Origin: a virus
Virus record (IMG/VR): IMGVR_UViG_3300034073_001823
Span: 1-35,933 of that record
Length of the DNA: 35,933 nt
Direction: 5' to 3' (one strand)
Shown here: in pieces, positions 1,414 through 35,933 of the stretch
How positions within the stretch are numbered: position 1 is the stretch's first letter
How the letters are laid out: the number at the start of each line of letters is the position of its first letter
Notes under the pieces: model-generated
Told to the model about the DNA's origin: nothing
The model's input: only the letters and a program-made list of their open reading frames with translations
The model's database searches: none
Position numbers and translations under genes: made by a program

Positions 1414-1704
1414 TTAGTTTTTTTTCGGCACGATCGGCGCAATCGGCGTAGCCGTGAACCACACCCGCAAAATCAGAATGATTGCAGGGAAAATGCTTGC
1501 AATGGTTTGGAAAACATTTTCCCCGGCTTTGATGTCATGCACCGCCTCCACCACTTGTGGCCCGGCCTGCTCAATGGCTGCCAGTTGTTCGGGCGTCACC
1601 TCGCTTGCGGTCAAAAAGCCCGTAAGCAGGTCGCCGCCCACCAGTAAAAGTGTTGATGCGCTGAAAAGCACGATCTTAGATTGATACCATTTTTTCGGTT
1701 CCAT
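1414..1704 (-). CDS. Holin-like membrane protein
   Basis: A 96-residue protein with two hydrophobic segments, about residues 10-32 (IVLFSASTLLLVGGDLLTGF) and 66-84 (TIASIFPAIILILRVWF). An amphipathic, acidic stretch (EQLAAIEQAGPQVVEAVHD) lies between them. It starts with the MEPKKWYQSK-type basic head often seen in small phage membrane proteins. The size, two spans and place just upstream of the endolysin fit a holin. No family signature proves this. The C-terminal tail PIVPKKN is basic, which is also common in holins. Confidence 0.65.
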   Translation of the reverse strand: MEPKKWYQSKIVLFSASTLLLVGGDLLTGFLTASEVTPEQLAAIEQAGPQVVEAVHDIKAGENVFQTIASIFPAIILILRVWFTATPIAPIVPKKN

Positions 1705-24270: not shown

Positions 24271-24276
24271 TCCTGT

Positions 24277-24750
24277 TTATTGCGCCTTTTTGGTCACGCT
24301 CATAAAGTCGAGTATTGAAGTAGTCGGTTTTGGCTTTTCAATCTTAATCCGCGCCCGGTCGGCGGGTGTCAATCCGAATGCCGCCCACAAAGTACGCAAC
24401 TCTTTTTGGCTTTCAACCATGATACGCCACGCCGGGTTGACCTTCGCCCCGGTGCTGGTTTCAATGATAGTACCCTGTTTATTCAGTACGGCATTGGCGT
24501 CCTCAAATCGGAAGAAGAACACAACGTAAGCCCGGATACTATCAAGGTCTTGCGTTGCGAGCGTCCCCATTTCCTGCATGTTGCTGGTAAGTTCCAGCCA
24601 TTTAGCGGCGTGGCGTTCGTCGAAGTCGGCGGGTGGGTCGGGTAGATTCTTTGCGGGCGCTACCTCTAATCGGTTAGCGTGCCGGACGGGCTGATAGGTG
24701 CCGTCGGCTTTGTGCCTTGTGGTGGGTTTGGCTGGGCGTCCTTTAGGCAT
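24277..24750 (-). CDS. terS: Terminase small subunit, P27 family
   Basis: 157 residues from the ATG at 24750 (MPKGRPAKPTTRHK), the usual start of P27-type small terminases. The protein then shows LPDPPADFDERHAAKWLELT, LATQDLDSIRAYVVFFFRFEDAN, and PAWRIMVESQKELRTLWAAFGLTPADRARI, the family end. The frame stays open for 74 codons upstream, but that part lacks family features and has no good start. It binds the packaging site and regulates TerL. Confidence 0.9.
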   Translation of the reverse strand: MPKGRPAKPTTRHKADGTYQPVRHANRLEVAPAKNLPDPPADFDERHAAKWLELTSNMQEMGTLATQDLDSIRAYVVFFFRFEDANAVLNKQGTIIETSTGAKVNPAWRIMVESQKELRTLWAAFGLTPADRARIKIEKPKPTTSILDFMSVTKKAQ

Positions 24751-24817
24751 AAATCTCAATTTTGCATACGTTTGCGTGATGGGGGGCGACCGATTTTCCG
24801 GCAGGTAACAAAAAGTT

Positions 24818-25144
24818 TTAAATAGGCCCCTGCCTTGCCTCTTTTGTGTTGGCTCGTTGCCGCGCCGTCTTAACGGCGTTACATCCCTTACATAGTCCTT
24901 GCAGATTGTCCATATCCCACGCGCTGCCACCATCGCGAATAGGCACGATGTGGTCAACGGTGTGGGTAGCATCCTGCTTACATATCACGCACACCGGGTC
25001 ACGCGCCCGTATCAGATCACGAACAGCCCGCCATCGTGGTGTGTTGTACACGGTATTGTAAGTAGTACGTTCTTCTTGCGTCCTATGGTGGCTCCACGGC
25101 TGCTTAGGCTTTAATGATGATAGTGTTGGCGGCCTCTTTGGCAT
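24818..25144 (-). CDS. HNH endonuclease
   Basis: 108 residues from the ATG at 25144. The HNH core is complete: C52..C55 (CVIC), DH at 64-65 (TVDHIVPI), the conserved Asn80 (DNLQGLC), and C85..C88 (CKGC). Such a gene next to the terminase genes is standard in HK97-type phages with cos-type packaging, where the nuclease assists terminase. This supports cos packaging here, but the site itself is not identified. A perfect 11-bp stem-loop lies just upstream of the start. Confidence 0.9.
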   Translation of the reverse strand: MPKRPPTLSSLKPKQPWSHHRTQEERTTYNTVYNTPRWRAVRDLIRARDPVCVICKQDATHTVDHIVPIRDGGSAWDMDNLQGLCKGCNAVKTARQRANTKEARQGPI

Positions 25145-25156
25145 GCTTATATGTTT

Positions 25157-25193
25157 AAGGCTATTGACCCACGCACGGCGGATCAATAGCCTT
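25157..25193 (-). other. Perfect 11-bp inverted repeat in the dNMP kinase-HNH gap
   Basis: AAGGCTATTGA (25157-25167) and TCAATAGCCTT (25183-25193) pair perfectly around a 15-base loop. No U tract follows on either strand, so it is not a clean terminator. It occupies nearly the whole gap between the kinase stop and the HNH start and might process or protect the mRNA. Confidence 0.55.
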
Positions 25194-25197
25194 TGAA

Positions 25198-25746
25198 TTA
25201 ATAGAATATCTTGCCCATCTCCTCGAGCGCATATATCTGTGCCTTAATAGCCAAATCCCCGTTGCCCGGGTTAATGATGGTTTCAAGGTTGAGTAGATCA
25301 ATCGCTTCTTCTGATTCGTGCGCCGGTGTGCCGCTTTCGTAATTAGGTCGCGATACCCGGAATACCACACCGCCCGCATTCTGTATGGCGTTTACCTCAT
25401 TCAGGAAGCGCACGTCGGTAATGATATAGTTCTGGGTAAAGTCCAGCGCGGAAAACAGCGCGTATATCCAAATATCTTCATGGAAATGCTTTCGGAATAA
25501 ATCCGTGCCGATCTTCTGAAAAGCCTCGCGGCGCGTCATTCCAAAGTCCGACATTCCGTTTTTCCATTCCAGCGAATCCTCGACCGTTTCCCCGCTGATA
25601 GTCGAATACACCTGTTTGAGCGGATCAGCAAAGGCCACCTTCCGAAAGCGCATCCCCGGGTAGTAATCGCAAAGCACGTTCGCCACATAGTTTTTACCGT
25701 GGCCGGCTTTGCCTGCAAGTCCGATAATAAGGCCGTTTTCACTCAT
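25198..25746 (-). CDS. Deoxynucleoside monophosphate kinase
   Basis: 182 residues from the ATG at 25746, which overlaps the upstream stop by 8 bases. The P-loop is GLAGKAGHGKNYVA (residues 9-22), followed by KVAFADPLKQVY and GTDLFRKHFHEDIW, then the NYIITDVRFLNEVNAIQNAGG strand-helix of T4 gp1-like and phage dNMP kinases. It phosphorylates dNMPs to dNDPs to feed phage DNA synthesis in the cytoplasm. The fold and motif order are clear; nucleotide specificity is not. Confidence 0.88.
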   Translation of the reverse strand: MSENGLIIGLAGKAGHGKNYVANVLCDYYPGMRFRKVAFADPLKQVYSTISGETVEDSLEWKNGMSDFGMTRREAFQKIGTDLFRKHFHEDIWIYALFSALDFTQNYIITDVRFLNEVNAIQNAGGVVFRVSRPNYESGTPAHESEEAIDLLNLETIINPGNGDLAIKAQIYALEEMGKIFY

Positions 25747-26626
25747 AGTGCTCAAAATCTCCACGTTTTTGTAATTTTTGATACGCCTTTTTCCCGATCG
25801 TTAGCGCCGTCGCGTCCTCTCCATGCCACAATGCTAATTCCAGCCGTCGGCTTTGCTTGTGGTTCTCGGTTGCCACTTGTGTACGCATCCATGCAGCCGT
25901 AACTGCAAGCCCTTGCTTACCTTTCTTTAGATGCGGCCACAGTTTAGACCGCTTCACATTCCCGTAGCCCCAGTTAAAGGCCAAAGATTTAACCGCCCAT
26001 TGTTGGCGGTGATTCAGCCCCGGTAAATCCTTTTTGATCTGCTCTCCGAGATCATGGAAGGTTTGGTACATCATTTCGCGCGCTTGCGATTCAGTTACTT
26101 TGTAGCCCTGTTTCTTGATCGTGTTTTTCCATCCGGCTGATAAATACTTAATGTGATTGCCGTATCCAATCGCCCAAGTATCGCCGTCCTTATAGCGCTC
26201 CAATTCCTGCCCGGGTCGTCCCATCGCTTCGCGCCGCTTTGTTTCGCAAATCACAATTTTGAAAACATTTATATCGCCGCTTTCGGTTTGCCATTCGCTC
26301 GCTTGTTGTTGAGCGCCTGAAATTCGCCGCACGGCTTCACGGATGCCGTTACCCATTCCGCTGCCAGCTTCCGCCGTCGACACCCGGACATTGCCTTCGG
26401 GCTGAACTTCAGCGCTTGGGTCGGGTTCGTATGGCGGATAGGCTTCATAGCCGTCGGGATATGTTTTATTTCCGTCGAAATCGACGGGATTAGATTCCGG
26501 TATTTCCATCGTGCGGGTCGCTTTGCCCTTGCGCCACGTGAACGGGGCTGCGAAGTAAAGGGTAGCGCCGAGCGCGGCCACCATTATCCAGCCGCGGATT
26601 TCTTTTTGTTTGTCCTGCTTTGTCAT
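25739..26626 (-). CDS. Membrane-anchored GH24-like lysozyme (possible SAR endolysin)
   Basis: A 295-residue protein. Residues 12-29 (GWIMVAALGATLYFAAPF) form one Ala/Gly-rich, weakly hydrophobic membrane segment, as in signal-arrest-release endolysins. Residues 30-118 are a Pro/Glu/Ser-rich linker. The lysozyme domain (about 121-290) has Glu128 as a likely acid, YKDGDTWAIGYGN (145-157), LNHRQQWAVKSLAFNWG (204-220) and RRLELALWHG (260-269), all at family positions. In T4-type enzymes a Thr precedes IG.G; here it is Ala152, with Thr150 nearby, so the active site is atypical. It lies far from the M15 endolysin gene, in the dNMP kinase/terminase transcript. Confidence 0.78.
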   Translation of the reverse strand: MTKQDKQKEIRGWIMVAALGATLYFAAPFTWRKGKATRTMEIPESNPVDFDGNKTYPDGYEAYPPYEPDPSAEVQPEGNVRVSTAEAGSGMGNGIREAVRRISGAQQQASEWQTESGDINVFKIVICETKRREAMGRPGQELERYKDGDTWAIGYGNHIKYLSAGWKNTIKKQGYKVTESQAREMMYQTFHDLGEQIKKDLPGLNHRQQWAVKSLAFNWGYGNVKRSKLWPHLKKGKQGLAVTAAWMRTQVATENHKQSRRLELALWHGEDATALTIGKKAYQKLQKRGDFEHYE

Positions 26627-26633
26627 CGTAAAT

Positions 26634-26853
26634 TTATTTTGGACGTGATTCTAAGGTTTCTTCGGCATTAGGTATTATTGTTCCAGCCGATTTAATGTGA
26701 CGGGTTAAGCCTACTTGTCCTATCCAGCTCGTTACCTTTTTTGGCTCATTTGCGAACCAATACATTTGACCATCCCAGTCCGTAGCCGCATAGTTAGCCC
26801 ATTCGGGCGCTTCGTCCCACGGGTAGGGGGGGCTGCTTTTGTTCTTTTTCCAT
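26634..26853 (-). pseudogene. Small conserved-looking gene interrupted by a C7 tract (+1 frame)
   Basis: From the ATG at 26853 the frame reads MEKEQKQPP and stops soon after. Dropping one C from the run of seven (plus-strand G at 26826-26832) joins it to a 60-codon open frame beginning YPWDEAPEWANYAATDWDG and ending at the TAA at 26634, giving 72 residues. The pattern aPeWAnYAa.D.DG...W....P is common in small phage proteins, so the downstream frame is real coding sequence. It has no start codon of its own. Either the gene is broken, or it is expressed by slippage at the C tract, or the base count is wrong. Confidence 0.7.
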
Positions 26854-26872
26854 AGTTGTAAAGTTTTAAATT

Positions 26873-26956
26873 TTAACGGTTAGATTTCCGATCGTCCCAG
26901 CGCTGAATCGCGCAAAGCAGCATGTAAGCCGCGAATACAAGAATAATTAAGTTCAT
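26873..26956 (-). CDS. 27-residue membrane micro-protein
   Basis: A short frame, MNLIILVFAAYMLLCAI then a charged tail (QRWDDRKSNR): one membrane span and a cytoplasmic basic end. Another in-frame ATG at 26974 would give 33 residues, but it lies only 4 bases after the TAAATTTG promoter element, upstream of or at the expected transcription start, so the ATG at 26956 is preferred. It is the first gene of the lysozyme/kinase/terminase transcript. Confidence 0.5.
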   Translation of the reverse strand: MNLIILVFAAYMLLCAIQRWDDRKSNR

Positions 26957-26978
26957 GGTTGCTGTCGTTGACATGGTG

Positions 26979-27010
26979 CAAATTTAAGTTAAAAAAGTTT
27001 AATAATCAAA
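26979..27010 (-). promoter_or_regulatory. Bacteroidota-type promoter for the lysozyme-terminase transcript
   Basis: On the minus strand TTTG (27010-27007), a 20-base spacer and TAAATTTG (26986-26979) match the -33/-7 consensus of Bacteroidota housekeeping promoters. It overlaps the end of the upstream gene. Confidence 0.7.
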
Positions 27011-27323
27011 TTTTATCATTCAGGTATCCAGTCAGCCAGTTGTACCGTTTCCGCGTGTCAAACATCGCTTTGCCAAAATTAGCAAACATCGCTCGGTCAA
27101 TCTCAACGTTTTTTAAGTATTCGGCCTGCAAATACTTAGGTACATCGCGCATCGGCAAATCGGTGCCGTTGATAATCGCCTCGGTGGTCGCATCCGCCAC
27201 CTTGCGCGCCGCTGCCACGTTTTCTTTCGGCCGTCCATCTTCGCGACGTTCGCCGGAAAACGCCATGTGGTACCGGATAATGAACTTTTTGCAGTTGAGG
27301 GCGACAAAATTAGAAGTCTCCAT
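27006..27323 (-). CDS. Hypothetical protein, 105 residues
   Basis: Starts at the ATG at 27323 (METSNFVALNCKKFIIRYH) and overlaps the nuclease gene by 14 bases. It contains a Gly/Arg-rich SGERREDGRPK segment and a helical second half ending TRKRYNWLTGYLNDKI. I recognise no family. The frame remains open further upstream inside the nuclease gene, but there is no convincing start there. Its end overlaps the promoter of the next transcript. Confidence 0.75.
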   Translation of the reverse strand: METSNFVALNCKKFIIRYHMAFSGERREDGRPKENVAAARKVADATTEAIINGTDLPMRDVPKYLQAEYLKNVEIDRAMFANFGKAMFDTRKRYNWLTGYLNDKI

Positions 27324-27630
27324 AAATACAATTTTTAATGTTAGTAAATGTTTCGGTTGTGAGTAGTTTCTCGGGGGTTGTTCTAAGAAGCAGGATTCCG
27401 GCACAAGCGAGCGCGTTATACTTTTCCATATCCGCCAAAAAACCTTTCGGCCTCGTGTGCCTGCCTTGTGACCAGACGCCGCCTTCTACCTCCAGCGCCA
27501 CCCGGCGGCCGTTCGCCTCGAAGTAGTAATCTATCCGCCACTTGCGCTTTGGGTCAAATCGGTATTCGGGCGTTGGGGCTGGCAGGTGGTAGGCTTCGCA
27601 GGCTTTGATGAAGAAGTTGGCGGTGCTCAT
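27310..27630 (-). CDS. PD-(D/E)XK-type nuclease, small
   Basis: A 106-residue protein. RFDPKRKWRIDYYF (Asp34) followed by VALEVEGGVWSQGRHTRPKGF (Glu47 or Glu49) and DMEKYNALACAGILLLRTT is the pattern of small phage PD-(D/E)XK nucleases of the VRR/VSR-like kind. It likely acts on branched or damaged DNA during replication or recombination. It follows the helicase loader gene after a 71-base gap that contains an 8-bp palindrome. Confidence 0.8.
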   Translation of the reverse strand: MSTANFFIKACEAYHLPAPTPEYRFDPKRKWRIDYYFEANGRRVALEVEGGVWSQGRHTRPKGFLADMEKYNALACAGILLLRTTPEKLLTTETFTNIKNCIYGDF

Positions 27631-27669
27631 GCTGGTACTTTGAATGGTTAGTAAATCTGTCGGGTATCA

Positions 27670-27689
27670 TTTTCGTGACGCCACGAAAA
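27670..27689. other. Perfect palindrome between helicase-loader and nuclease genes
   Basis: TTTTCGTG and CACGAAAA flank a 4-base centre (ACGC on the plus strand). Eight pairs, no U tract of terminator type. It could be an operator half-site pair or an mRNA hairpin. Confidence 0.5.
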
Positions 27690-27701
27690 AGGTCGCGCCC
27701 G

Positions 27702-28505
27702 TTATCGCTTCGACCCGCCCGGAAACAACACCCCGGTACACATCCCCCGCACCCGATCAAAAGCGGGCGCTGAAAGCAGTTCCTGCACGGTGTTGGTATC
27801 TCCGTTGGTTATGAAGTGGGTTAGTTGGCCATACGTCCGATTTCGCGTGTAGCGCGCTTCAATCAGTTGTTCGTTTATGTCCACTTGGTCGCCAAAGTAC
27901 GACACGTTGCCAGTATGCCGCAAAAACTCATCAAGGCAGCGGTCAAACGTAGCCACCTGCATGAAGTCGTACTGCTTATTTGTGCGGGCTGTGCCGTACA
28001 CGTCGCTCATACTGCTCCACGAAAATTTTTTGGGCGAATCCACCAGCAGGCAGAAACCCATCATTATCCGCATCATTTCTGTTTTGCCAGCGCCCGGAAG
28101 CCCGTAAATAAGCAGCCCCTTGTTCAGCGGCCACGGGCATTCAGGGTCGTTAATGAAGTACTGAATCAGCCCGCGGATCGTCGCTGCCAGTTCGCTGTCT
28201 TTCGGTATATCCCACGCGAACGGCGCGCCGCTGATGCCCTCGATTTCATCAGCCCGGAAGTTGAGCAAATCCACCACAATTTTCCGCGCTTCCGAATAGG
28301 CCATTATTTGCCCGTAGGATCGTTTATTTTTTGCCTCGCGGCGCGTAGTACTGTACACCTTGTTCCAGTACGCCTGAAGGGCAGCAGCGGCCTCCTGCGT
28401 GGTTTCTGCGTTTTGTTTTCTCGCGGCATTTTGCCGGGCGCGTAAATCTTCGAGGGTTAACCCCTTCGCAAGTTCCAGCGCGAGTTCGTCAATGTTCTTT
28501 TCCAT
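27702..28505 (-). CDS. DnaC-like helicase loader ATPase
   Basis: A 267-residue protein. A helical N-terminal part (1-90) is followed by an AAA+ ATPase domain with the P-loop YGLPGAGKTEMM (134-145). Further on come a KFSWSSMSDVYG stretch and FITNGDTN with the sensor-type Asn, then DRVRGMCTGVLFPG with the arginine expected near the end of such domains. DnaC-type proteins load the replicative helicase at the origin. It directly follows the putative initiator, the same order as lambda O-P. No phage helicase or polymerase gene is seen, so host replication proteins are probably recruited. Confidence 0.85.
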   Translation of the reverse strand: MEKNIDELALELAKGLTLEDLRARQNAARKQNAETTQEAAAALQAYWNKVYSTTRREAKNKRSYGQIMAYSEARKIVVDLLNFRADEIEGISGAPFAWDIPKDSELAATIRGLIQYFINDPECPWPLNKGLLIYGLPGAGKTEMMRIMMGFCLLVDSPKKFSWSSMSDVYGTARTNKQYDFMQVATFDRCLDEFLRHTGNVSYFGDQVDINEQLIEARYTRNRTYGQLTHFITNGDTNTVQELLSAPAFDRVRGMCTGVLFPGGSKR

Positions 28506-28508
28506 AAG

Positions 28509-29366
28509 TTAAAAAATTTGTTTGCGTTTGTAGGTTTCGGCGTCTAAAGTGACGTCGTTGATCCCGTTTTTCCGGCTTGGGCCGGGATTCGGCGCGCCGA
28601 CCCCGGTGAAATTCCGTTTTTTCCGCACCCATGCGACAAAGTGCCGAACCAAATCCACCTCGGATTCGTGAACCTTCCCTGTGGCCTGCATTTCGGCCGC
28701 GAACGCCGCGCGCAAATTTTCGACCCGCTCAACCGATAACGACCCTTCCGCTTCCATCGCCAGCAGGTCGGCTGTTTTTTCGGTCAAAGCTGCCATTATT
28801 TTTTTTTCTTCAAAAATTGAAGACGACGGCGACGTTGGCGACGGCTCGTGCGTGCGCACGCACGTGTCATCAACATCTACTTTATCTTTATCTTTATCTT
28901 TACTTTCCTTTATCTTTACTTTATGTACTTTAGGCGTCGCACTCCCGTCTAAAACCGGGTTATGGACGTCTATAACTCCCAGCGGGGCGTCTTTTTTCCC
29001 TTTCATATTCTCAATCCATCGGCGTTTTCTCTCGCGGCTGTCCTGTAAAGGCTGCATTCGCTCAATAAGCGCGGGACATTCGATGTATTCTTCGTTTTGA
29101 TCAAATAGTTTTAGACGTCTAAAACTCGACATAATGCGTTCCAATTCCTGAACATCAATTCCAAAGTCCCCAGCCAGTATTTCCATCGTAAGTTCGTCCA
29201 CCTGTATCCTGAACTGGTCGGCCTTGGTAAGCACCTCCAGCGTCATGCAGTAGATAGCGTAGCCTACAAGCCCGTGCTTTGCCCGCAAGGCTTTGATGCG
29301 TGGATTGTCCCGCATATCATTATCGTGGCTGAAGTAATCGGCGTTGTTTTTTAATGGTCGTGCCAT
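28509..29366 (-). CDS. Replication initiator-like protein (DUF4373 N-terminal domain)
   Basis: A 285-residue protein. It opens MARPLKNNADYFSHDNDMRD, then NPRIKALRAKHGLVGYAIY, the winged-helix DUF4373/Lin1244-type start found in Bacteroidota phage replication proteins. Residues 147-185 form a low-complexity hinge (KIKESKDKDKDK, then a Ser/Thr/Pro stretch). The C-terminal part (190-285) is helical with a basic VRHFVAWVRKKRNF segment. The hinge is coded by tandem AAAGATA-type repeats followed by an 18-bp palindrome, a possible origin as in lambda O. The helicase loader gene follows after 3 bases. Confidence 0.82.
   Translation of the reverse strand: MARPLKNNADYFSHDNDMRDNPRIKALRAKHGLVGYAIYCMTLEVLTKADQFRIQVDELTMEILAGDFGIDVQELERIMSSFRRLKLFDQNEEYIECPALIERMQPLQDSRERKRRWIENMKGKKDAPLGVIDVHNPVLDGSATPKVHKVKIKESKDKDKDKVDVDDTCVRTHEPSPTSPSSSIFEEKKIMAALTEKTADLLAMEAEGSLSVERVENLRAAFAAEMQATGKVHESEVDLVRHFVAWVRKKRNFTGVGAPNPGPSRKNGINDVTLDAETYKRKQIF
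28847..28928. other. Candidate replication origin inside the initiator gene
   Basis: On the minus strand, about 48 bases of A-rich repeats (units of GATAAA and a 16-base AAAGTAAAGATAAAGG-like unit, 28881-28928) lie 16 bases from a perfect 18-bp palindrome, CGTGCGTGC/GCACGCACG (28847-28864). Iteron-like repeats plus a palindrome in the hinge-coding part of the initiator gene recall lambda ori. Confidence 0.4.
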
Positions 29367-29367
29367 G

Positions 29368-29661
29368 TTACGTCATTTCAATGGTTTGCAAAAAAGTAGG
29401 CAGCGTAGCATCCACCTTACTCTCGAGCGCCATGCACTTCATCCGGATTTCAGCCAGGGTGTCGGCGTCCGATCTTTGATTGCCCCGCAGCGCCTTTTGC
29501 GCCGTCCGCATCTCCAGCACCAACTTAGCAAGCCCTTTGCCGGCCATCCGCGCCGCGCCGTTAGCTTCCAGTTCGGTTTGCGCTACCTGTGCCGCAAGGT
29601 CGGCGGGGTCAAAGTAGCGGATTTCGCCGTCGGCGTCTGACAGGCAGATGAACTCGTTCAT
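29368..29661 (-). CDS. Hypothetical protein, 97 residues
   Basis: Starts MNEFICLSDADGEIRYFDPAD, with one long helical middle (LAAQVAQTELEANGAARMAGKGLAKLVLEMRTAQ) and a second helix at the end. No family is recognised. It ends 1 base before the initiator gene and starts with an ATGA overlap on the upstream gene, so it is translated with the replication block. It has no membrane segment or signal peptide. Confidence 0.75.
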   Translation of the reverse strand: MNEFICLSDADGEIRYFDPADLAAQVAQTELEANGAARMAGKGLAKLVLEMRTAQKALRGNQRSDADTLAEIRMKCMALESKVDATLPTFLQTIEMT

Positions 29662-30026
29662 AGGTCGTTCGTTTGTTGTGTCATCAGTTCGTCCGCGCGT
29701 TTCTTGTCGGCGGCTGTCATATCCTTTTCATCAAACGGCTCGTTCGTGTCGAGGCGCATTATTGTTTTCATCCCCATTACAGGCATGTGGTACACCACCT
29801 CACACTTGACCGGGCGTTCTTCTGTCCCATTGTGCAGCATGTCGGTAAGGTGCTGCACCTCGGCCGCTTCGCCCATGATCTGCATTTTAAATTTCTGCAT
29901 TTCCTCTTTGCGCTGATCTTCAAGTTCCCGAAGGCGCATCAGTTTTTCCGTAAGGTTTTGCCCGATCTCGATTTTTTCTTCATCAGTCAGGGCGACGGGA
30001 ATCATAAGTGTTTTAATCTCTTGCAT
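29658..30026 (-). CDS. Hypothetical coiled-coil protein, 122 residues
   Basis: MQEIKTLMIPVALTDEEKIE and then a long charged helix (about 20-65, LTEKLMRLRELEDQRKEEMQ), followed by a small beta part with PVKCEVVYHMPVMGMKTIMRLDTNEPFDEKDMTAADK. The closing R.DT.E....(K/R).M...(E/D) pattern is found in small phage proteins of early regions. The function is unknown. A 2-base gap separates it from the DnaQ-like gene upstream. Confidence 0.75.
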   Translation of the reverse strand: MQEIKTLMIPVALTDEEKIEIGQNLTEKLMRLRELEDQRKEEMQKFKMQIMGEAAEVQHLTDMLHNGTEERPVKCEVVYHMPVMGMKTIMRLDTNEPFDEKDMTAADKKRADELMTQQTNDL

Positions 30027-30028
30027 GT

Positions 30029-30769
30029 TTAAGAAATTTGAATGTTAGTGTAATCGGCCACTATCCTACGGGATTGCGCCGGGAAGTCATTTCTGAGAAA
30101 CCAAATCGTAAACGGGTCTTCGGCCGTGACGGGCTGATCTTTGTTTTTGCCAAAGTTCCAGTACAACTTCCGGCCGTTATCCTGCCAGTAGGTAAGGTTT
30201 GCGAAGTCTGCAATGTCTTTACCGAATGCGGAAATTTCATGCAGTTGCTCAAGGTCGGTCAGCCCGTACATTTCCCTTTGGCGCTCGAATATTTGACGTA
30301 CCAGTTCCACGTCGCCCGTGTTTCTTTGGGGGGCTAAGTATTCCCTGTTGAGGTAGAACTTTACAGCGGCGGCGAAATTGCGCGGCTCCATTTGGTGATA
30401 GATGCTTTGAATGTCAATTATGGACGCACTTTCGTGCGGGAAATTATCAATGCCTGAACGGGCAAATTCTTCAGCGAGTAAAGGCAGGTCGAGGCGCCGG
30501 ATCGAAAAACCCATAAAGTCGCAACCTTCCAAATACTCTTTCACGTCCCACGCGATACTTTCAAACGGCGTTCGGGGTAATTTTCGGGCTGTGGCCACCT
30601 TTGCCTCGTTCTGCATCGGGTTGACGGTGAAGTTCGCCCGGCTACATTCGCCCGTTTCATAATCCACCCGTACCACGTCGATCGTGGCGATATAGCAGTT
30701 GCTTACGATCGTTTTGCCGTGCGGGTTGTATTTCCCCGCCTGAATTTCAATAATTGCTATCTTAGACAT
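30029..30769 (-). CDS. DnaQ-like exonuclease fold protein, probably inactive
   Basis: A 246-residue protein. The middle matches DnaQ-type 3'-5' exonucleases found in Bacteroidota: YLEGCDFMGFSIRRLDLPLLAEEF (motif II area, one Asp kept), then IDIQSIYHQMEPRNFAAAVKFYLN and DVELVRQIFERQREMY. The C-terminal WNFGKNKDQP...WFLRNDFP resembles their extra FGK-type end. However, the N-terminal DLET motif I is absent (IAIIEIQ instead), and the His before the last Asp (HsAl.D) is not there (NTGDV). Two or more metal-binding residues therefore seem lost. It may serve as a binding or structural protein. By-eye alignment only. Confidence 0.72.
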   Translation of the reverse strand: MSKIAIIEIQAGKYNPHGKTIVSNCYIATIDVVRVDYETGECSRANFTVNPMQNEAKVATARKLPRTPFESIAWDVKEYLEGCDFMGFSIRRLDLPLLAEEFARSGIDNFPHESASIIDIQSIYHQMEPRNFAAAVKFYLNREYLAPQRNTGDVELVRQIFERQREMYGLTDLEQLHEISAFGKDIADFANLTYWQDNGRKLYWNFGKNKDQPVTAEDPFTIWFLRNDFPAQSRRIVADYTNIQIS

Positions 30770-30793
30770 ATTTCAGTAGTTAATTTTTTTCTA

Positions 30794-30827
30794 AACACGG
30801 CGGCCACTCTTTTGCAACCGCCGTGTT
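30794..30827 (-). other. Perfect 10-bp stem-loop between tRNA-like element and DnaQ-like gene
   Basis: AACACGGCGG and CCGCCGTGTT pair perfectly around a 14-base loop. On the minus strand it is followed by TAGAAAAAAATT, not a U tract, so it is not a normal terminator. It lies 25 bases upstream of the DnaQ-like start and may mark a processing or regulatory site in the mRNA leader. Confidence 0.6.
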
Positions 30828-30846
30828 GTAGCCTCATGAAAGTGAG

Positions 30847-30924
30847 TGACCGAACCGGGATTCGAACCCGTTAAAAAAACTGCCCTCAGAAAAATCGCTG
30901 CTTCCCAGCCAGCCGCGTTCGGTC
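30847..30924 (-). ncRNA. tRNA-like element, degenerate
   Basis: On the minus strand GACCGAA (30924-30918) pairs perfectly with TTCGGTC (30854-30848) as a 7-bp acceptor stem, followed by A as discriminator. Just before it lies a T-arm with the loop TTCGAAT and GGG/CCC stem (one outer mismatch). GCTG/CAGC can form a D-like stem. The total length, 78, is tRNA-sized. But position 8 is C, the D arm is displaced by 2 bases, and no 5-bp anticodon stem with a 7-base loop can be drawn, so no amino acid can be assigned. No CCA is encoded. Confidence 0.45.
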
Positions 30925-30925
30925 G

Positions 30926-30957
30926 TAAAATCGGCGCTAATTTTCATCCGCGCCGAT
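30926..30957 (-). terminator. Terminator-like hairpin after the YqaJ-type nuclease gene
   Basis: On the minus strand ATCGGCGC pairs with GCGCCGAT (8 pairs, 12-base loop), ending in a run TTTTA that is partly in the stem. The U tract is short; the hairpin ends 5 bases before the tRNA-like element and may also be a processing site. Confidence 0.4.
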
Positions 30958-30990
30958 AGCAGAATAACATCTATGCAACAAGTCTCGTTC

Positions 30991-32049
30991 TCAAATCTTG
31001 GTGGCAACCCGCAAAACCCGCACCCCTTTATCGTTGGCTTTCCACGTCACCTTACCAAGGTCGCCCATGTCTATGCCGTCGCCGTCGCCGATTCGCCGCA
31101 TCAGTTCGTTTGCGACCTCCTGTCTGCTTTCTTCCAGCACTTTCTTCTGTGCGTTGATTTCGGCGTAGCGCTTTGCCAGCCGTATATCCTGCGCTGTGGC
31201 TATTTTCATCTCCCCGCCGTTCGCCGCAAACCGCTTGCGCATAAATTCTTCATACGCGGGCGACCCGTCGGCTTTTGGCTCATACTGCTCCACCAGTCGC
31301 ATGTAGTCTGCAAGCGCTGATCTGTCCGGGTTTGGCTTTTCTTCTTCTTGCAGGTATTGCAGGGCAAACTTACGGGCATTTTCGATGCGCTGCCAAAAAA
31401 CTTCAGCGCCTTCACGTATAACCTGTTGCGCGTTCGGGTCGGCGTCAAACTGGATCACTTGCAGGCTGTTGCCGTCTTTGAGTAGTGCCAGTTCGGCGTA
31501 CTGATACCCGGTCACCAGCATGTATTGTTGAATCTGATACAGGTACGAAGGCGGCACACCAGCCGCCCATTGTTGGCTGTAAAACCCGTTGATCGTCTTG
31601 CATTCCAGTACCCCGCGCCCGATTTTGCCCGGAACGCTATCTATACGCCTGTCAATGTTGGCGATAAGGTAGGGCGTTTCCGCCAGCCAAATCGTGCTGT
31701 TTGAGTAACTACATTTTCTTATGGGCTTGCGTTCGGCATAGTTGGCCATTAATGAAGCCTCGTCGCCATCCCAAAAGCGCCACAATTCGGCGATGTGTGA
31801 TTCCATGAAGTTCCCCATGAACATTCGCATGTTGCCCGCGCCTTCTTCCTGAAAAAGCCCCAACTTTTCAAAAAATAACTGGTTGGCGGATTTCCACGGG
31901 TTGACGCCTAACACCGTACCGATCTCCGATCCGCCGATACCACGGCTGCGAAGTGCCAGCCATTCGGCGCGGCTCTCATATTTCGCTAATACGCGCCCAC
32001 CTCGTTTGGTGGGCGCTGTATTCGGACTGTTACCGACTTCTTTACTCAT
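30991..32049 (-). CDS. YqaJ-like viral recombinase nuclease (PD-(D/E)XK)
   Basis: 352 residues from the ATG at 32049, which overlaps the upstream stop by 8 bases; another ATG lies 12 bases further upstream. The pattern is RSRGIGGSEIGTVLGVNPWKS (start of YqaJ domains), then LIANIDRRID (Asp133), GVLECKTI (Glu149, Lys151) and YLYQIQQYMLVTG (QxxxY). Together these form the active site of lambda-exonuclease-like enzymes. The C-terminal 150 residues are helical and charged. It probably resects double-strand ends for recombination with the ssDNA-binding-like protein coded just upstream. No RecT/Bet annealing gene is recognisable. Confidence 0.88.
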   Translation of the reverse strand: MSKEVGNSPNTAPTKRGGRVLAKYESRAEWLALRSRGIGGSEIGTVLGVNPWKSANQLFFEKLGLFQEEGAGNMRMFMGNFMESHIAELWRFWDGDEASLMANYAERKPIRKCSYSNSTIWLAETPYLIANIDRRIDSVPGKIGRGVLECKTINGFYSQQWAAGVPPSYLYQIQQYMLVTGYQYAELALLKDGNSLQVIQFDADPNAQQVIREGAEVFWQRIENARKFALQYLQEEEKPNPDRSALADYMRLVEQYEPKADGSPAYEEFMRKRFAANGGEMKIATAQDIRLAKRYAEINAQKKVLEESRQEVANELMRRIGDGDGIDMGDLGKVTWKANDKGVRVLRVATKI

Positions 32050-32743
32050 GGGTGGCGGCATTTTGAATTTCAAAAGGATCACTATTCATGAATAAAGCGT
32101 CCATGTTAGGCAGGAACGGTAGCGAGCGCAAAGCGGCCAGCAGTTCGGCCGGCGGGTCGTTTTCTTTGGTTTGCTGTACCGTGTAGGTATAGATGTCGAA
32201 GGGTTTGCCCCCGATCACTTTTTTGGCGTCGAACTTCTTGATAATTTTCAAGTCCGACTTGAAAGGATTCGGCGCATCGGCGGAAAAGCGCAACTTCTCA
32301 AAAAGGTCGTCGAAAAGCTTGGCCTGCGATATGGTAAGGATTTCCACCCCGCCCGACTTGTAAGAATACACCAGCAAGGCCAAAAACTTGCGCGGCTTAT
32401 CCTTTTGCCAGCCCCGAAATTCAGCAGGCGTGACAATCGCTTCGCCTTGACGGTAGCGCTTTACGGCACTCTCTACCTTTGGCGCGCCGTCGTCGCCCGT
32501 TATGACCTCGCCCGTTTCCTCATTAATAGCCGTGCGACGGAACCACACTTCCGCGCCGTAAACGGGTTTGTCCACCAGCCGGAAGCGGTTTTCGCCTTCT
32601 TCAAGGCGTGTGAAGTTGTTTAGTTTGACTTCTTTGGCGTCGGCATCTATGGCCACGCCGAAGTCGGTCAGGCTCAAAAAGTTTTTGAGCGGGTCGTCAA
32701 TAATGACGAGCTCCGCTTTTTCGATTTTTGCAATCTCTTTCAT
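32042..32743 (-). CDS. Probable ssDNA-binding protein (gp32/OB-like), recombination partner
   Basis: A 233-residue protein. Segments FTRLEEGENRFRLVDKPVYG, KPRKFLALLVYSYKSGGVEIL and ISQAKLFDDLFEKLRF, followed by DLKIIKKFDAKKVIGGKPFDIYTYTV, recall phage ssDNA-binding proteins of the T4 gp32-like kind (a gen.fRlL strand, a kf.allVydy strand, then a Dl.I.k strand). There is an acidic N-terminus but no typical acidic C-terminal tail, and no zinc-binding Cys set. It lies directly before the YqaJ-type nuclease, where phages code an annealing or ssDNA-binding partner. The assignment is by eye. Confidence 0.62.
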   Translation of the reverse strand: MKEIAKIEKAELVIIDDPLKNFLSLTDFGVAIDADAKEVKLNNFTRLEEGENRFRLVDKPVYGAEVWFRRTAINEETGEVITGDDGAPKVESAVKRYRQGEAIVTPAEFRGWQKDKPRKFLALLVYSYKSGGVEILTISQAKLFDDLFEKLRFSADAPNPFKSDLKIIKKFDAKKVIGGKPFDIYTYTVQQTKENDPPAELLAALRSLPFLPNMDALFMNSDPFEIQNAATHE

Positions 32744-32768
32744 GGTTGAAAAATTTATAGGTGAAAAG

Positions 32769-32867
32769 TTAGATCACTTTTAATTCGCCCGTCGCGTCCG
32801 CCTGGTACTCTCCAAGCCGGAAGCCGTGCGGCTCTTTTCGTTTGATCGTGGATAAGAAATTTGGCAT
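32769..32867 (-). CDS. 32-residue micro-protein
   Basis: A short frame beginning MPNFLSTIKRKEPHGFRLGE. Its ATG overlaps the TAA of the 35-residue frame just upstream as TAATG, the coupling seen between certain genes here. A longer frame in the same phase exists (to 33122), but it would overlap two other genes and its extra part is Arg-rich shadow sequence. The function is unknown. Confidence 0.5.
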   Translation of the reverse strand: MPNFLSTIKRKEPHGFRLGEYQADATGELKVI

Positions 32868-32974
32868 TATAACCGTGATAACCTCGATCGCGGCCTTTCT
32901 TTTGGCGGTTGGTAAAACATGGATTTTATGCGCTCTAATTCGGCAATACCTGACTTCGAGTGCTGATAATCCAT
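32867..32974 (-). CDS. 35-residue micro-protein
   Basis: A short frame beginning MDYQHSKSGIAELERIKSMF and ending in a basic tail (RPRSRLSRL). It is accepted because it begins shortly after a 12-bp stem-loop, fills the gap between two genes, and ends in TAATG with the next micro-gene. No family is recognised. Confidence 0.48.
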   Translation of the reverse strand: MDYQHSKSGIAELERIKSMFYQPPKERPRSRLSRL

Positions 32975-32988
32975 GTAGCAGCCGTTTA

Positions 32989-33023
32989 GTGCGCCGATCA
33001 ACAAATAATAATGATCGGCGCAC
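32989..33023 (-). other. Perfect 12-bp stem-loop
   Basis: GTGCGCCGATCA (32989-33000) and TGATCGGCGCAC (33012-33023) pair perfectly around an 11-base A/T-rich loop. No U tract follows on either strand. It lies between the stop of the 101-residue gene and the start of the 35-residue gene and may be an mRNA stability or processing element. Confidence 0.6.
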
Positions 33024-33037
33024 AAGTGGGCGGTGGT

Positions 33038-33343
33038 TTATTGCGCGCATCTTTCGGATTCGAGCGTTTTGTCTATTTGATCGTGTTGGTGGGATTCCCA
33101 GCGGGCTATGGTTTCGTCCCATTGCATTTCAGCAAGCAGCGCATTTTCGGCCGTTTGGTTTTTTACGGCGCGCAAAAGGTATAGGCGCGCAAGAACCGGA
33201 ATTTGGGAAACTTGTACCGGCTCGCCGTTTTTAAAGGCTTCTGTCGGCTCGACAATATCGCTGTTGTCAAATTTAGCGACATAAAAGTCAAGGTCAACGT
33301 TTAGGCGGTCTTTGAAGAAAATGGAGGAAAATAAATCGTTCAC
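33038..33343 (-). CDS. Hypothetical early protein, 101 residues
   Basis: MNDLFSSIFFKDRLNVDLDF with a GTG start 26-30 bases after a strong promoter. The middle (QVSQIPVLARLYLLRAVKN) is helical and the C-terminus is charged (ARWESHQHDQIDKTLESE). No domain is recognised. It is the first gene of the transcript that continues to the recombination genes. Confidence 0.75.
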   Translation of the reverse strand: MNDLFSSIFFKDRLNVDLDFYVAKFDNSDIVEPTEAFKNGEPVQVSQIPVLARLYLLRAVKNQTAENALLAEMQWDETIARWESHQHDQIDKTLESERCAQ

Positions 33344-33375
33344 GTTGCAAAATTTTAATTATCAAGTTAACGGTA

Positions 33376-33405
33376 CAAAGATACAGCCTTTATTTTTATG
33401 CGCAA
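33376..33405 (-). promoter_or_regulatory. Early promoter with repeated box
   Basis: On the minus strand TTG (33405-33403), a 19-base spacer and TATCTTTG (33383-33376) form a Bacteroidota -33/-7 promoter. The spacer contains GCGCATAAAAATAAA (33403-33389), found identically in the promoter at 34093-34126. Confidence 0.8.
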
Positions 33406-33455
33406 GAAAATACCCAACTTTTTTTCAAAAAAAATTCAGGAGCGCTCAAACCAAT

Positions 33456-33485
33456 AAAAAAAGCGGCACTTTCCAGCGCCGCTTT
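33456..33485 (-). terminator. Intrinsic terminator of the RHH-protein transcript
   Basis: On the minus strand AAAGCGGC pairs with GCCGCTTT (8 pairs, 10-base loop), followed by TTTTTATT. It separates the transcript from 34060 from the one starting at 33370. Confidence 0.88.
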
Positions 33486-33540
33486 CCGAATTTACCACTA
33501 AAAAATCTTGCCTGTCGCGCCCGGCTCGTTTGCCGAACTA

Positions 33541-33687
33541 TCATTGCTGAATTTCTTTGAGATACTTTCGAAGCGCTTTTTCTACCGTTTCGCTCCTGTC
33601 TTTTTTTGTCGCCTCGTGCAGGTCGGCGGGAAGTGTAATGTTAGCCGAAAGCCTGTTCTTTTTTGGGCGACCTCTTTTTTTATCCAT
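33541..33687 (-). CDS. Small ribbon-helix-helix DNA-binding protein
   Basis: 48 residues from the ATG at 33687 (MDKKRGRPKKNRLSANITLP). A basic N-terminal arm containing RGRPKK (AT-hook-like) is followed by a strand SANITLPADLH and two helices (LHEATKKD, SETVEKALRKYLKEIQ), the ribbon-helix-helix pattern. Such proteins bind DNA as dimers and often repress early promoters. The start overlaps the upstream stop by 8 bases, so it is co-translated with the 126-residue protein. A plausible target is the box shared by the two nearby promoters (inference). Confidence 0.75.
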   Translation of the reverse strand: MDKKRGRPKKNRLSANITLPADLHEATKKDRSETVEKALRKYLKEIQQ

Positions 33688-34060
33688 TCCTGAATTTGTC
33701 TTTGATTTCTGATTCGATGGAACGCACCCGCAATTCAGCCTGTCGCTCCATGTGCTTAACCCGATCGAGTTCGGTTTGGATTCGCCCCCATGATTCGCGG
33801 GCATCCTCTAATTCGCGGGCTGCCAGTTCCGCTTCGTCCGAAAAGTAACGGCCTGCACGGGCATATCCCTGATAAACAATGGCTTGATGTAGCCCGGCAG
33901 CCCTTGCGCTGATGGTGTCCAACTCCTGAATAGTAAACCATTCCGGCGGCTCCGGCTCTACCCGCGTCGGCTCCCAGCCGTCCGGGCGCTTGGTGCATTC
34001 GATAAGGCATTCGTGATTGTTTTCGGTAAGGTAGTAAAATCTGATCGTTACATCTTGCAT
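33680..34060 (-). CDS. Hypothetical early protein with C-terminal coiled coil, 126 residues
   Basis: Starts at the ATG at 34060 (MQDVTIRFYYLTENNHECLI), about 30 bases after a promoter. The N-terminal 40 residues are beta-rich, then EPPEWFTIQELDTISARAAG, and residues 65-126 form one long charged helix (AELAARELEDARESWGRIQ). The frame is open further upstream, but that part crosses the promoter. The function is unknown. Confidence 0.75.
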   Translation of the reverse strand: MQDVTIRFYYLTENNHECLIECTKRPDGWEPTRVEPEPPEWFTIQELDTISARAAGLHQAIVYQGYARAGRYFSDEAELAARELEDARESWGRIQTELDRVKHMERQAELRVRSIESEIKDKFRNG

Positions 34061-34092
34061 GGTAGTAAATTTAAAAGGTGAATAATGTGCTG

Positions 34093-34126
34093 CAAAGATA
34101 CGCGCTTTTATTTTTATGCGCACAAA
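34093..34126 (-). promoter_or_regulatory. Early promoter with repeated box
   Basis: On the minus strand TTTG (34126-34123) or GTG (34123-34121) precedes TATCTTTG (34100-34093) with a spacer of 22 or 20 bases. It contains the same GCGCATAAAAATAAA box (34121-34107) as the promoter at 33376-33405. An inverted repeat (TCCAGC-GTAT-GCTGGA, 34162-34177) lies upstream. Confidence 0.75.
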
Positions 34127-34204
34127 AATAAAGCAAATATTTTTACTGACATCCGCAGGCCTCCAGCGTATGCTGGAAGGGCGCGCCTCGATATCCCGCA
34201 TTTT

Positions 34205-34236
34205 AAAAAAAGCCGGGCAACCTTACAGCGCCCGGC
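34205..34236 (-). terminator. Intrinsic terminator, second of a tandem pair
   Basis: On the minus strand GCCGGGC pairs with GCCCGGC (7 pairs, 11-base loop), followed by TTTTTTT. The sequence before the stem also ends in a T run, so it may work weakly in both directions. Confidence 0.9.
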
Positions 34237-34275
34237 AAAAAGAAACGTCATTATACACCCTAAAAAATCATACTC

Positions 34276-34310
34276 AAAAAATGCCGCCCACCAAAAGGCA
34301 GGCGGCGGCA
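34276..34310 (-). terminator. Intrinsic terminator, first of a tandem pair
   Basis: On the minus strand TGCCGCC pairs with GGCGGCA (7 pairs, 15-base loop), followed by TTTTTT. It lies 13 bases after the stop of the gene at 34323-34568; a second terminator follows about 40 bases later. Confidence 0.82.
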
Positions 34311-34322
34311 ACCATGAAAAAA

Positions 34323-34568
34323 CTACAACGAACAATATATGGACTCCTTAAATACATACCGGCCGGGCGCGTGCGCTGTTAAAATTTTCATGAGGCGCTT
34401 AATACCTAACTTAACCTGCCTGCCATTACGCACCACCCGACCGGATGCCGTATGCTTTGCCACTAATATCGTATTGCGGTCGCGCGGGCTTAATTCAGCC
34501 CACCGCGCCGGATCGGTGATAAACCGCTCAAAATCTAACCACGCTTCTTCTTGCGTCATTTCTTTCAT
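34323..34568 (-). CDS. Hypothetical protein, 81 residues, single-gene leftward transcript
   Basis: MKEMTQEEAWLDFERFITDP and then RWAELSPRDRNTILVAKHTA and a basic half (GRVVRNGRQVKLGIKRLMKIL). It could be a small helical DNA- or RNA-binding protein given its basic C-terminal part, but I recognise no family. A -7-like TAACTTTG ends 6 bases before the ATG, so the mRNA may be leaderless or use the ATG at residue 4. Two tandem terminators follow. It faces the rightward HTH-membrane gene across a 132-base divergent control region. Confidence 0.75.
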   Translation of the reverse strand: MKEMTQEEAWLDFERFITDPARWAELSPRDRNTILVAKHTASGRVVRNGRQVKLGIKRLMKILTAHAPGRYVFKESIYCSL

Positions 34569-34573
34569 AGGGG

Positions 34574-34581
34574 CAAAGTTA
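34574..34581 (-). promoter_or_regulatory. -7 promoter element for the leftward gene
   Basis: TAACTTTG on the minus strand fits TAnnTTTG and ends 6 bases before the ATG at 34568. No good -33 TTTG is visible at the right distance, so it may be weak or activator-dependent. Confidence 0.5.
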
Positions 34582-34634
34582 GAGCGCGTGAATTAAAGTA
34601 GTTTAATTTTTTTATATTTTTTTTCGGCGGTCGC

Positions 34635-34666
34635 TTGCAAGTATGAAACAAGTTTAATTATCTTTG
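34635..34666 (+). promoter_or_regulatory. Rightward promoter in the divergent control region
   Basis: TTG (34635-34637), a 21-base spacer and TATCTTTG (34659-34666) fit the Bacteroidota promoter pattern. The start codon at 34701 is about 30 bases downstream. The nearby A/T-rich stretch contains two copies of AGTTTAATT (34600-34608, 34651-34659), possible operator sites. Confidence 0.75.
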
Positions 34667-34700
34667 CCGAACATTACGCAACCTAATAATTATTTGGACC

Positions 34701-35378
34701 ATGACAGCAGAACAATTTGCCACCCAGCACAATCGCCCAATCGATTCTGTACGAATGAAGCTTAGCCGGATACAGCCCGGCGTCCGCTTTGACCGGTTCG
34801 CCGAATTATCCGAGCGAACAATCGAGCAACTGCTAAACGATAAGCGCAAAAAGTCCGGCGAACAATACGCTGAACAGCCGGCCGAAAAAATGAAGCGGGC
34901 AAAGCGGGCGCGTACAATTCGCCGCGAACAGCCGGAAGCAGATCAACCCGCCGAACAATACGGCCTGCAAACCATAAACATTGAACAGCCGGAAGCCGCC
35001 GAACAATCCGGGTTTGATATCGGCACTATTCGCGGGCATTTCCTGTCGTTTGTGCTTTTGTCCGTCGTACTCGGTCACGCCGCTCTTATTTGGTACGATT
35101 GCGGCGACCTTTGGGGTGAACCCGGCACGATCGGCGGTGGCGTTGCGTTCCTTATTATTTTGGCGGCCGTGCTGCTCGCTACTGATGAAACGCGCGTCCG
35201 CACTTCAGGCACCGCCCTTTGGTTTGTATTTATAATTGATATATGCGCTTGGTGGGTGCATTATCCGACGTTTCAGCGCATCGGTGTGTCGGATGTGGTT
35301 ACGGGGTGTTTTTGTGCTTTTTTGTGCGCTTGCTCGTGGGCGGCGTTATTTCTTTACCGGGATAAAAATATTGATTAA
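34701..35378 (+). CDS. HTH-like protein with four C-terminal membrane segments
   Basis: A 225-residue protein. Residues 1-45 (MTAEQFATQHNRPIDSVRMK onward) look like a helix-turn-helix domain. Residues 50-104 are a charged linker with repeated E(Q)P(E)A/EQYAEQP units, mirrored by near-repeats in the DNA. Four hydrophobic segments follow at about 113-131, 142-161, 171-187 and 197-218, separated by short turns, so both ends should be cytoplasmic. I recognise no named family. It is the first gene of the only rightward operon, with its own promoter and terminator. It could be a membrane-tethered regulator or a superinfection-exclusion or immunity factor; both are inference. Confidence 0.75.
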   Translation: MTAEQFATQHNRPIDSVRMKLSRIQPGVRFDRFAELSERTIEQLLNDKRKKSGEQYAEQPAEKMKRAKRARTIRREQPEADQPAEQYGLQTINIEQPEAAEQSGFDIGTIRGHFLSFVLLSVVLGHAALIWYDCGDLWGEPGTIGGGVAFLIILAAVLLATDETRVRTSGTALWFVFIIDICAWWVHYPTFQRIGVSDVVTGCFCAFLCACSWAALFLYRDKNID

Positions 35379-35614
35379 TGGAAAACTACATTTTAAGCGC
35401 AAAGGAAAGTGCAGAGTTAATAACAGAAGGCTTTCCGATCAAAAAAATACATATAAATGTTGATGATTTATTGGCTGAAATGCCCTCAGTAAAAATTGAA
35501 TACGTAAATGGATATTGGACTGTTTGGTATTATCATGAAGGTTGGCCTTCGGAAAAACTAATAATGGCTTTAGTTGAAGTGTGGCGATGCCGCTATCGAA
35601 TACCAATATATTAA
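35378..35614 (+). CDS. Hypothetical protein, 78 residues, partner of the HTH-membrane gene
   Basis: MENYILSAKESAELITEGFP, then IKKIHINVDDLLAEMPSVKI, and an aromatic second half with YVNGYWTVWYYHEGWPSEKL. Its start overlaps the upstream stop as TAATG, so it is made with the membrane protein. It has no membrane span and no recognised family. Its base composition is more A/T-rich than the neighbouring genes, which may mean a different origin. A terminator follows 29 bases after its stop. Confidence 0.72.
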   Translation: MENYILSAKESAELITEGFPIKKIHINVDDLLAEMPSVKIEYVNGYWTVWYYHEGWPSEKLIMALVEVWRCRYRIPIY

Positions 35615-35643
35615 CACCCCACCCAAAATAACACCAATAACCC

Positions 35644-35673
35644 AGCCTCGCCCACCCCGGCGGGGCTTTTTTA
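35644..35673 (+). terminator. Intrinsic terminator of the rightward operon
   Basis: AGCCTCGCC pairs with GGCGGGGCT (9 pairs including one T-G, loop of 6), followed by TTTTTTA. It lies between convergent genes. The minus-strand metallophosphoesterase ends right at its T tract, and the hairpin may also end that transcript, though no U tract is seen on that side. Confidence 0.9.
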
Positions 35674-35933
35674 TTGGCACAATTCCGCCCAATACTTCAT
35701 CTCGAACTTTGCAGGCTTAAAATGCAGCCACGCACCGCCCAACGGTTTAGGCGGCATTCCTTTTTCTACCGCCCACCCTTTGCCTACCGTATATTCGTCT
35801 TTGTACGTCCCCAGTTTGATGTGCAACTGCTCATCTAATACCTGCTCTCCCGTCCGCTTCAATCGCGCCCGGGTGATCGGCACAATCCAGCGGTCGTGTG
35901 TGTGTCCCGAAACAACGATCTTCGCGTCGGGCA
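35671..35933 (-). CDS. Calcineurin-like metallophosphoesterase (3' part; 5' part at 1-716)
   Basis: The C-terminal part of the 283-residue protein that starts at position 716. This copy runs in frame from the right edge (35933, equal to position 127) to the TAA at 35671. It includes the GHTHD metal site (in the duplicated 127 bases) and ends in a Trp- and Lys-rich C-terminus (GGAWLHFKPAKFEMKYWAEL). Counting the overlap once, the gene is 852 bp long. Confidence 0.92.
   Translation of the reverse strand, partial: PDAKIVVSGHTHDRWIVPITRARLKRTGEQVLDEQLHIKLGTYKDEYTVGKGWAVEKGMPPKPLGGAWLHFKPAKFEMKYWAELCQ
35807..35933. repeat. Terminal direct repeat, right copy (circular overlap)
   Basis: Identical to positions 1-127. 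See the left copy for its interpretation as closure of a circular map. Confidence 0.95.

Follow-up and report, generated by a model that had tools for sequence, protein, structure and literature searches.

What would a phage do with a protein that appears to join a helix-turn-helix (HTH) head to four membrane spans in a single chain? The question is raised by a 225-aa gene that runs rightward in the window, by which we mean the whole stretch of 35,933 nt (35.9 kb) of viral DNA analysed here, against the leftward direction of the other assigned genes, ORF2 (Table 1) excepted. The preliminary description had taken the product for a membrane-tethered DNA-binding protein that might couple an early switch to the membrane state or exclude other phages; a tethered DNA-binding protein is still the best reading of the anatomy, that is, of the HTH model of the head, the positive charge on the inside, the four spans and the purifying selection, although no family match backs it. 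We consider it quite possible, if short of probable, that the protein is anchored in the membrane and acts on phage DNA, most likely on its own divergent control region.

The phage, the gene and its membrane part

The window codes for terminase and portal as well as for lysis and replication proteins, and head and tail genes can be read from its ORFs. Its two ends are the same 127 bases (1-127 and 35807-35933); since G009 and G002, two contigs from a different assembly, have these identical 127 bases as their overlaps with one another and with the window ends, the repeat probably stems from the overlap used by the assembler on a circular map rather than from packaging. A Bacteroidota host is likely, because an 819-aa tail-region protein has matches limited to the Cellulophaga phages phi12:1 and phi12:3 and because the early intergenic regions contain TAnnTTTG boxes, the Bacteroidota -7 consensus (PMC7366714). 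There is no evident sign of a classical lysogeny switch, as domain searches of the genome returned neither Phage_integrase nor the HTH_3 domain of Xre-type repressors, the controls being positive in 14 of 14 genomes for each. Elsewhere in the window, a lone tRNA-Glu (UUC) gene lies amid DNA metabolism genes (30846-30924, minus strand), and many repeats of the DGDKGDI type are found in a 1709-aa tail-region protein (2634-7763, minus strand), which reaches 52-64% in its best segments between relatives, well below the conservation of most of its neighbors.

The 225-aa ORF is a genuine gene, in the rightward orientation reported for it earlier. Close homologues were detected in three IMG/VR contigs only (L001, L002 and L003); at the sensitivities applied, searches of cultured phages, of plasmids and of the genome-contig collection yielded none, the one match, at E 0.6, being due to chance. 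Homologues lacking the N-terminal part, for which the preliminary description had proposed a check, were not found; the L003 homologue is interrupted by the contig edge before residue 45. All parts of the gene are under purifying selection: dN/dS between the window and G001 is 0.058, inside the range of the capsid, tail and lysis genes (0.017-0.127), with the membrane part under the tightest constraint in most pairs and the linker the least conserved. On the sequences compared, the selection profile is core-like and unlike that of decaying or fast-diversifying cargo.

The four spans claimed earlier are borne out by four hydrophobic peaks on the Kyte–Doolittle scale (residues ~114-132, 142-160, 168-186 and 199-217) and by the distribution of charges. 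Counted as K+R versus D+E, the loops carry 0/3 (loop 1), 2/2 (loop 2) and 1/1 (loop 3) and the tail 2/2, which is compatible with an N-in/C-in topology placing loops 1 and 3 outside and loop 2 and the tail inside; the head, with its 20 K+R, would by this pattern lie in the cytoplasm. In the homologue comparison, H126, D133, D162, D180 and H187 and four cysteines of span 4, all in or near the spans, are invariant, and these residues and the constraint on the membrane part seem to exceed the needs of a mere anchor. The linker is repetitive, as described, with EQ(P/Y)AE / EQPEA motifs and, at the DNA level, a 14-nt and a 19-nt unit, each present three times. The full-length AlphaFold model is poor (pLDDT 47.9), and it is solely in this low-confidence model that a helix of residues 38-72 runs on into the linker; a fold search with it gave a top match of E 0.008 yet TM 0.26 and was left unused. 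Pfam matches to MASE9 and EccD, at E 0.01-0.04 and below the cut-off, were taken as chance matches of hydrophobic stretches.

Table 1. Positions of the features discussed, in window coordinates
Feature	Position	Strand	Remarks
Whole gene, 225 aa	34701..35378	+	Homologues L001 95%, L002 94%, L003 84%
Predicted helix-turn-helix head, residues 1-51	34701..34853	+	AlphaFold model, Foldseek neighbours
Charged linker, EQPAE/EQPEA repeats, residues 52-112	34854..35036	+	Least conserved part
Four transmembrane spans (predicted), residues 113-219	35037..35357	+	Kyte–Doolittle, charge pattern
Rightward promoter: TTG, 21 nt, TATCTTTG	34635..34666	+	Bacteroidota-type -7 box
Leftward-promoter -7 box TAACTTTG	34574..34581	-	Fits TAnnTTTG; unchanged in L001 and L002
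Candidate operator, palindrome AATTAAA-GTAG-TTTAATT	34591..34608	.	Single copy in window; retained in L001 and L002
Second AGTTTAATT copy	34651..34659	+	Abuts rightward -7 box; direct repeat within chance
Terminator T1 of 81-aa gene, left cassette bound	34283..34306	-	10-pair hairpin then ATTTTTT
Divergent 81-aa basic protein	34323..34568	-	pI 10, no known family; same cassette
ORF2, 78 aa, variable cargo slot	35378..35614	+	1-nt overlap with stop codon of 225-aa gene
Terminator T2, right operon bound	35644..35667	+	9-pair stem, T run; before convergent metallophosphatase gene
Segment replaced by diverged allele in G002/G009 variant	34237..35806	.	First and last difference
M15 peptidase	713-1084		Lysis set
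Rz-like spanin	1086-1349		Lysis set
Two-span holin-like ORF	1414-1704		Lysis set
Lysozyme	25739-26626		Lysis set

The predicted head and the control region

For the head, a model built from residues 1-53 plus two near-identical relatives (AlphaFold model mb0467f701bf8) has helices at residues 3-9, 14-24 and 38-46, with a pLDDT of 77.7 (84-87 over residues 1-20) and a pTM of 0.58; wing strands are absent from it. DNA-binding proteins account for 27 of the 37 listed PDB matches in a Foldseek search, every one at E >1. The top solved fold is pSK1 Par (TM 0.55, E 2.3), RacA lies within the top seven (TM 0.53, rmsd 2.6, E 5.4), and the other neighbours listed include the MerR-type CadR, PbrR and NmlR and LacI-type heads; among viral structure models, MerR-like and HTH proteins match with similarly weak scores. 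The profiles of Pfam, NCBIfam and PHROG gave no usable match to the head or the gene, and targeted searches of the window, G001 and G002 for HTH_17 (PF12728) and MerR_1 (PF13411) gave none at E <= 10, the controls being positive. Matches of the head to EutK_C and Sirohm_synth_C (E 0.07-0.13) were too weak for use. Because the fold neighbours are weak and the profile and targeted searches empty, the DNA-binding head is a supported prediction of the modelling rather than a family assignment. The HTH-like N-terminus of the preliminary description thus stands as a model and not as a member of a sequence family, and the comparison with HTH structures that it had suggested returned mostly DNA-binding neighbours, albeit none of them significant.

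The likeliest target of such a head would be the AT-rich divergent control region just upstream. The promoter and the terminator that the gene had been said to possess are both present as signals, the former with its -7 box TATCTTTG at 34659-34666, whose form TAnnTTTG is retained in two relatives (L001 and L002), and the latter at 35644-35667. Two leftward early promoters (33376-33403 and 34093-34121, both on the minus strand) have a common GCGCATAAAAATAAA upstream of TATCTTTG; judged by its sequence, the rightward promoter is without GCGCATAAAAATAAA and may be under different control. In the control region itself, no operator stands clearly above chance. As an operator, the palindrome AATTAAA-N4-TTTAATT is only suggestive: 16% of shuffles have one (P 0.16), which is within chance for the palindrome alone, and the lower values for the palindrome with a third half-site (4% of shuffles, P 0.04) and for the heptamer count in the early gaps (P 0.014) are post hoc. 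The direct repeats described as flanking the AT-rich core fail as operators, the 9-base repeat AGTTTAATT at 34600 and 34651 being within chance (12% of dinucleotide shuffles have one, P 0.12); the copy at 34651 is altered to AGTTTAACT in L001.

The cassette and its exchange

Between two terminators lies a cassette made up of the divergent 81-aa gene, the control region, the 225-aa gene and a variable downstream slot. The earlier account of the operon was right about the rightward gene but overlooked the second rightward ORF (35378-35614), and it also missed the divergent 81-aa gene, which has its own terminator and belongs to the same cassette. The 81-aa protein retains 98% aa identity in G001 and G002 (dN 0.011-0.013, dS 0.15-0.39). 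For ORF2, no credible homologue was found, and matches to L113/L114, covering 28 residues inside a tail gene, were dismissed as chance. The slot that it occupies holds a 270-aa phrog_5931 protein in L002 and nothing in L001 and L003; the 270-aa protein (L002:6705-7517) has a weak ParB-like match and a VDGQHRLNA motif.

In the variant represented by G002 and G009, the 225-aa gene has been exchanged jointly with the control region and the divergent gene. The two contigs are identical to the window, with zero mismatches, over 1-23547 and 23421-34236; then follow 99 substitution sites in 34237-35378, corresponding to an allele ~9% different, and ORF2 is swapped for the 270-aa phrog_5931 protein, with differences continuing to 35806 and identity resuming in the last 127 bases. 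The exchanged unit consists of the 81-aa divergent gene, both promoters, the HTH-membrane gene and the cargo slot; its right junction is defined by a single 127-base overlap, to which mixed-strain assembly could contribute. G001 matches the window at 91% identity from ~34200 up to where the 225-aa gene stops; to the left of this block it has a different gene, and its ORF2 slot is empty, yet the 225-aa gene is still accompanied by its control region and by the divergent 81-aa gene. By sequence comparison, this cassette alone has been exchanged between genomes that otherwise agree fully, a sign of selection or of frequent transfer at this spot; that the gene changes together with its control region and divergent neighbor is what one would predict of a protein working on that control region.

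The slot can also be followed into other phages. The distant phage G008 shares with the window its terminase (35%), portal (31%), metallophosphatase (58%) and tape measure, and has a very similar layout, with nearly all genes leftward and one rightward operon (L108, L109; 35781-36793) that codes for a 72-aa soluble protein and then a 256-aa four-span protein and whose terminator faces the metallophosphatase gene. The 256-aa protein (L012:1159-1929) is like ours in its slot, its opposite direction, its four spans and the terminator before the convergent metallophosphatase gene, but its long cytosolic part is C-terminal and the two families showed no homology in profile comparison (probability 0.1-0.5%, both profiles being thin, which leaves room for a remote link). 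On this comparison, we rejected homology of the 225-aa protein to that second four-span family, which remoter phages with a related metallophosphatase also carry, beside RuvC-like and dCTP deaminase-like genes as read from translations. Cellulophaga phage phi12:1 has the common tail protein and a reverse-strand block adjoining the lysis genes, and no such four-span/head gene was seen on inspection of that block. This slot may recurrently hold a four-span protein, with the family differing between phages.

Possible functions and known counterparts

From the anatomy and the exchange of the cassette, we infer DNA binding, its site and its purpose, which could be regulation, anchoring or both. The cytoplasmic, winged-helix-like N-terminal head would bind phage DNA, and the flexible repeat linker would connect it to the four spans, seated in the inner membrane, from where the protein would control the two divergent promoters or hold the phage genome in place. 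What counts against DNA binding is the combination of no usable family match, Foldseek matches at E >1 and no operator rising clearly above chance. A single-protein DNA–membrane module, in which a Par/RacA-like head and a four-span domain would fix the genome at the membrane, as a site of partition or replication, or, as a one-chain device resembling Rex, open a channel on foreign DNA, and the cassette would be exchanged whole, is a speculative extension that we hold to be improbable.

The main rival is exclusion or abortive infection of the Rex/Sie kind, which we find doubtful: the four spans would act as a pore or keep DNA from entering, and the head would sense invading or replicating DNA, making the protein a one-chain equivalent of a Rex-like pair. 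There are known exclusion proteins with four spans, CarolAnn gp43 and Sbash gp31, which have been compared with lambda RexB (PMC6426606), and P22 SieA is an inner-membrane protein that blocks DNA passage (PMC11436027); a cassette with its own promoter and a swappable cargo slot, exchanged between otherwise identical phages, would also suit this role. Such systems are, however, usually prophage-borne, and no Phage_integrase was found in the record, although an integrase of another kind or a plasmid prophage is conceivable; moreover, the gene shows core-like constraint rather than diversification, and searches of the Pfam, NCBIfam and PHROG libraries gave no match. That the membrane part is the most constrained could also speak for a host-takeover or replication-platform protein whose spans would carry out the function, for example by binding a host membrane protein, and whose head would make a protein contact instead of binding DNA. 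We regard this as unlikely, as the fold neighbours of the head are mostly DNA-binding and no partner is known, but in G008 the slot holds an unrelated four-span protein with a separate 72-aa soluble ORF before it, and the replication of phi29 is thought to be anchored through the membrane proteins p1 and p16.7 (PMC4974454). Both explanations are kept alive by the polar residues and cysteines that are invariant within or close to the spans. A holin or other lysis protein, brought to mind by a small multi-span phage protein adjoining the lysis end of the genome, is hardly credible given a lysis set located elsewhere (Table 1), a promoter of its own on the opposite strand and a charged head of 110 residues.

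To return to the membrane-anchored DNA-binding protein that we favor, its closest parallels in design are the transmembrane transcription regulators, an established class of which 27%, as we read the source, have more than two spans (PMC10269533). The likeness is in a DNA-binding domain, predicted here, and a transmembrane region within one chain; the 225-aa protein differs in being phage-coded, in a head without a curated HTH family match and in its four spans, multi-span forms being a minority of the class. The second parallel is with DNA–membrane tethers such as RocS, a membrane-binding chromosome protein with a MerR-type head, for which Par and RacA are the two reported fold relatives and with which Par has a C-terminal membrane-helix sequence in common (PMC11500499). 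Like pSK1 Par, RacA and RocS, the 225-aa protein has a small N-terminal HTH head (here predicted), a linker and an attachment to membrane or pole at the other end; these proteins, however, have a coiled coil and an amphipathic helix (C-terminal in RocS) or a pole-binding end, whereas here four spans provide the membrane attachment, and no sequence similarity to them was found and the fold match is not significant.

Among phage proteins, p16.7 (and p1) of phi29 are alike in being membrane proteins proposed to hold DNA replication at the membrane (PMC4974454). No sequence link between p16.7 and the 225-aa protein was found. The architecture of p16.7 is presumably different. With CarolAnn gp43 and Sbash gp31, the protein has in common four predicted spans and a phage-coded accessory operon, and with Rex/Sie-type exclusion proteins generally the multi-span character; lambda RexB, gp43 and gp31 have a separate cytosolic partner and act from the prophage, whereas in the 225-aa protein the cytosolic part belongs to the membrane chain itself, and searches of the window for Phage_integrase and HTH_3 gave no lysogeny genes. 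We have filed the gene under none of the MerR, HTH_17, HTH_3, RacA/Par or Rex families. If its head binds DNA, the protein could by itself bring a particular segment of phage DNA to the inner membrane; we know of few phage membrane tethers, and of none from Bacteroidota phages. With a small cassette, two promoters and natural alleles, regulation, anchoring and exclusion should be separable by simple assays. Membrane-tethered regulators and DNA–membrane tethers are known kinds; what would be new here is that a phage codes for one, with four spans and an orphan head, in a cassette that can be exchanged.
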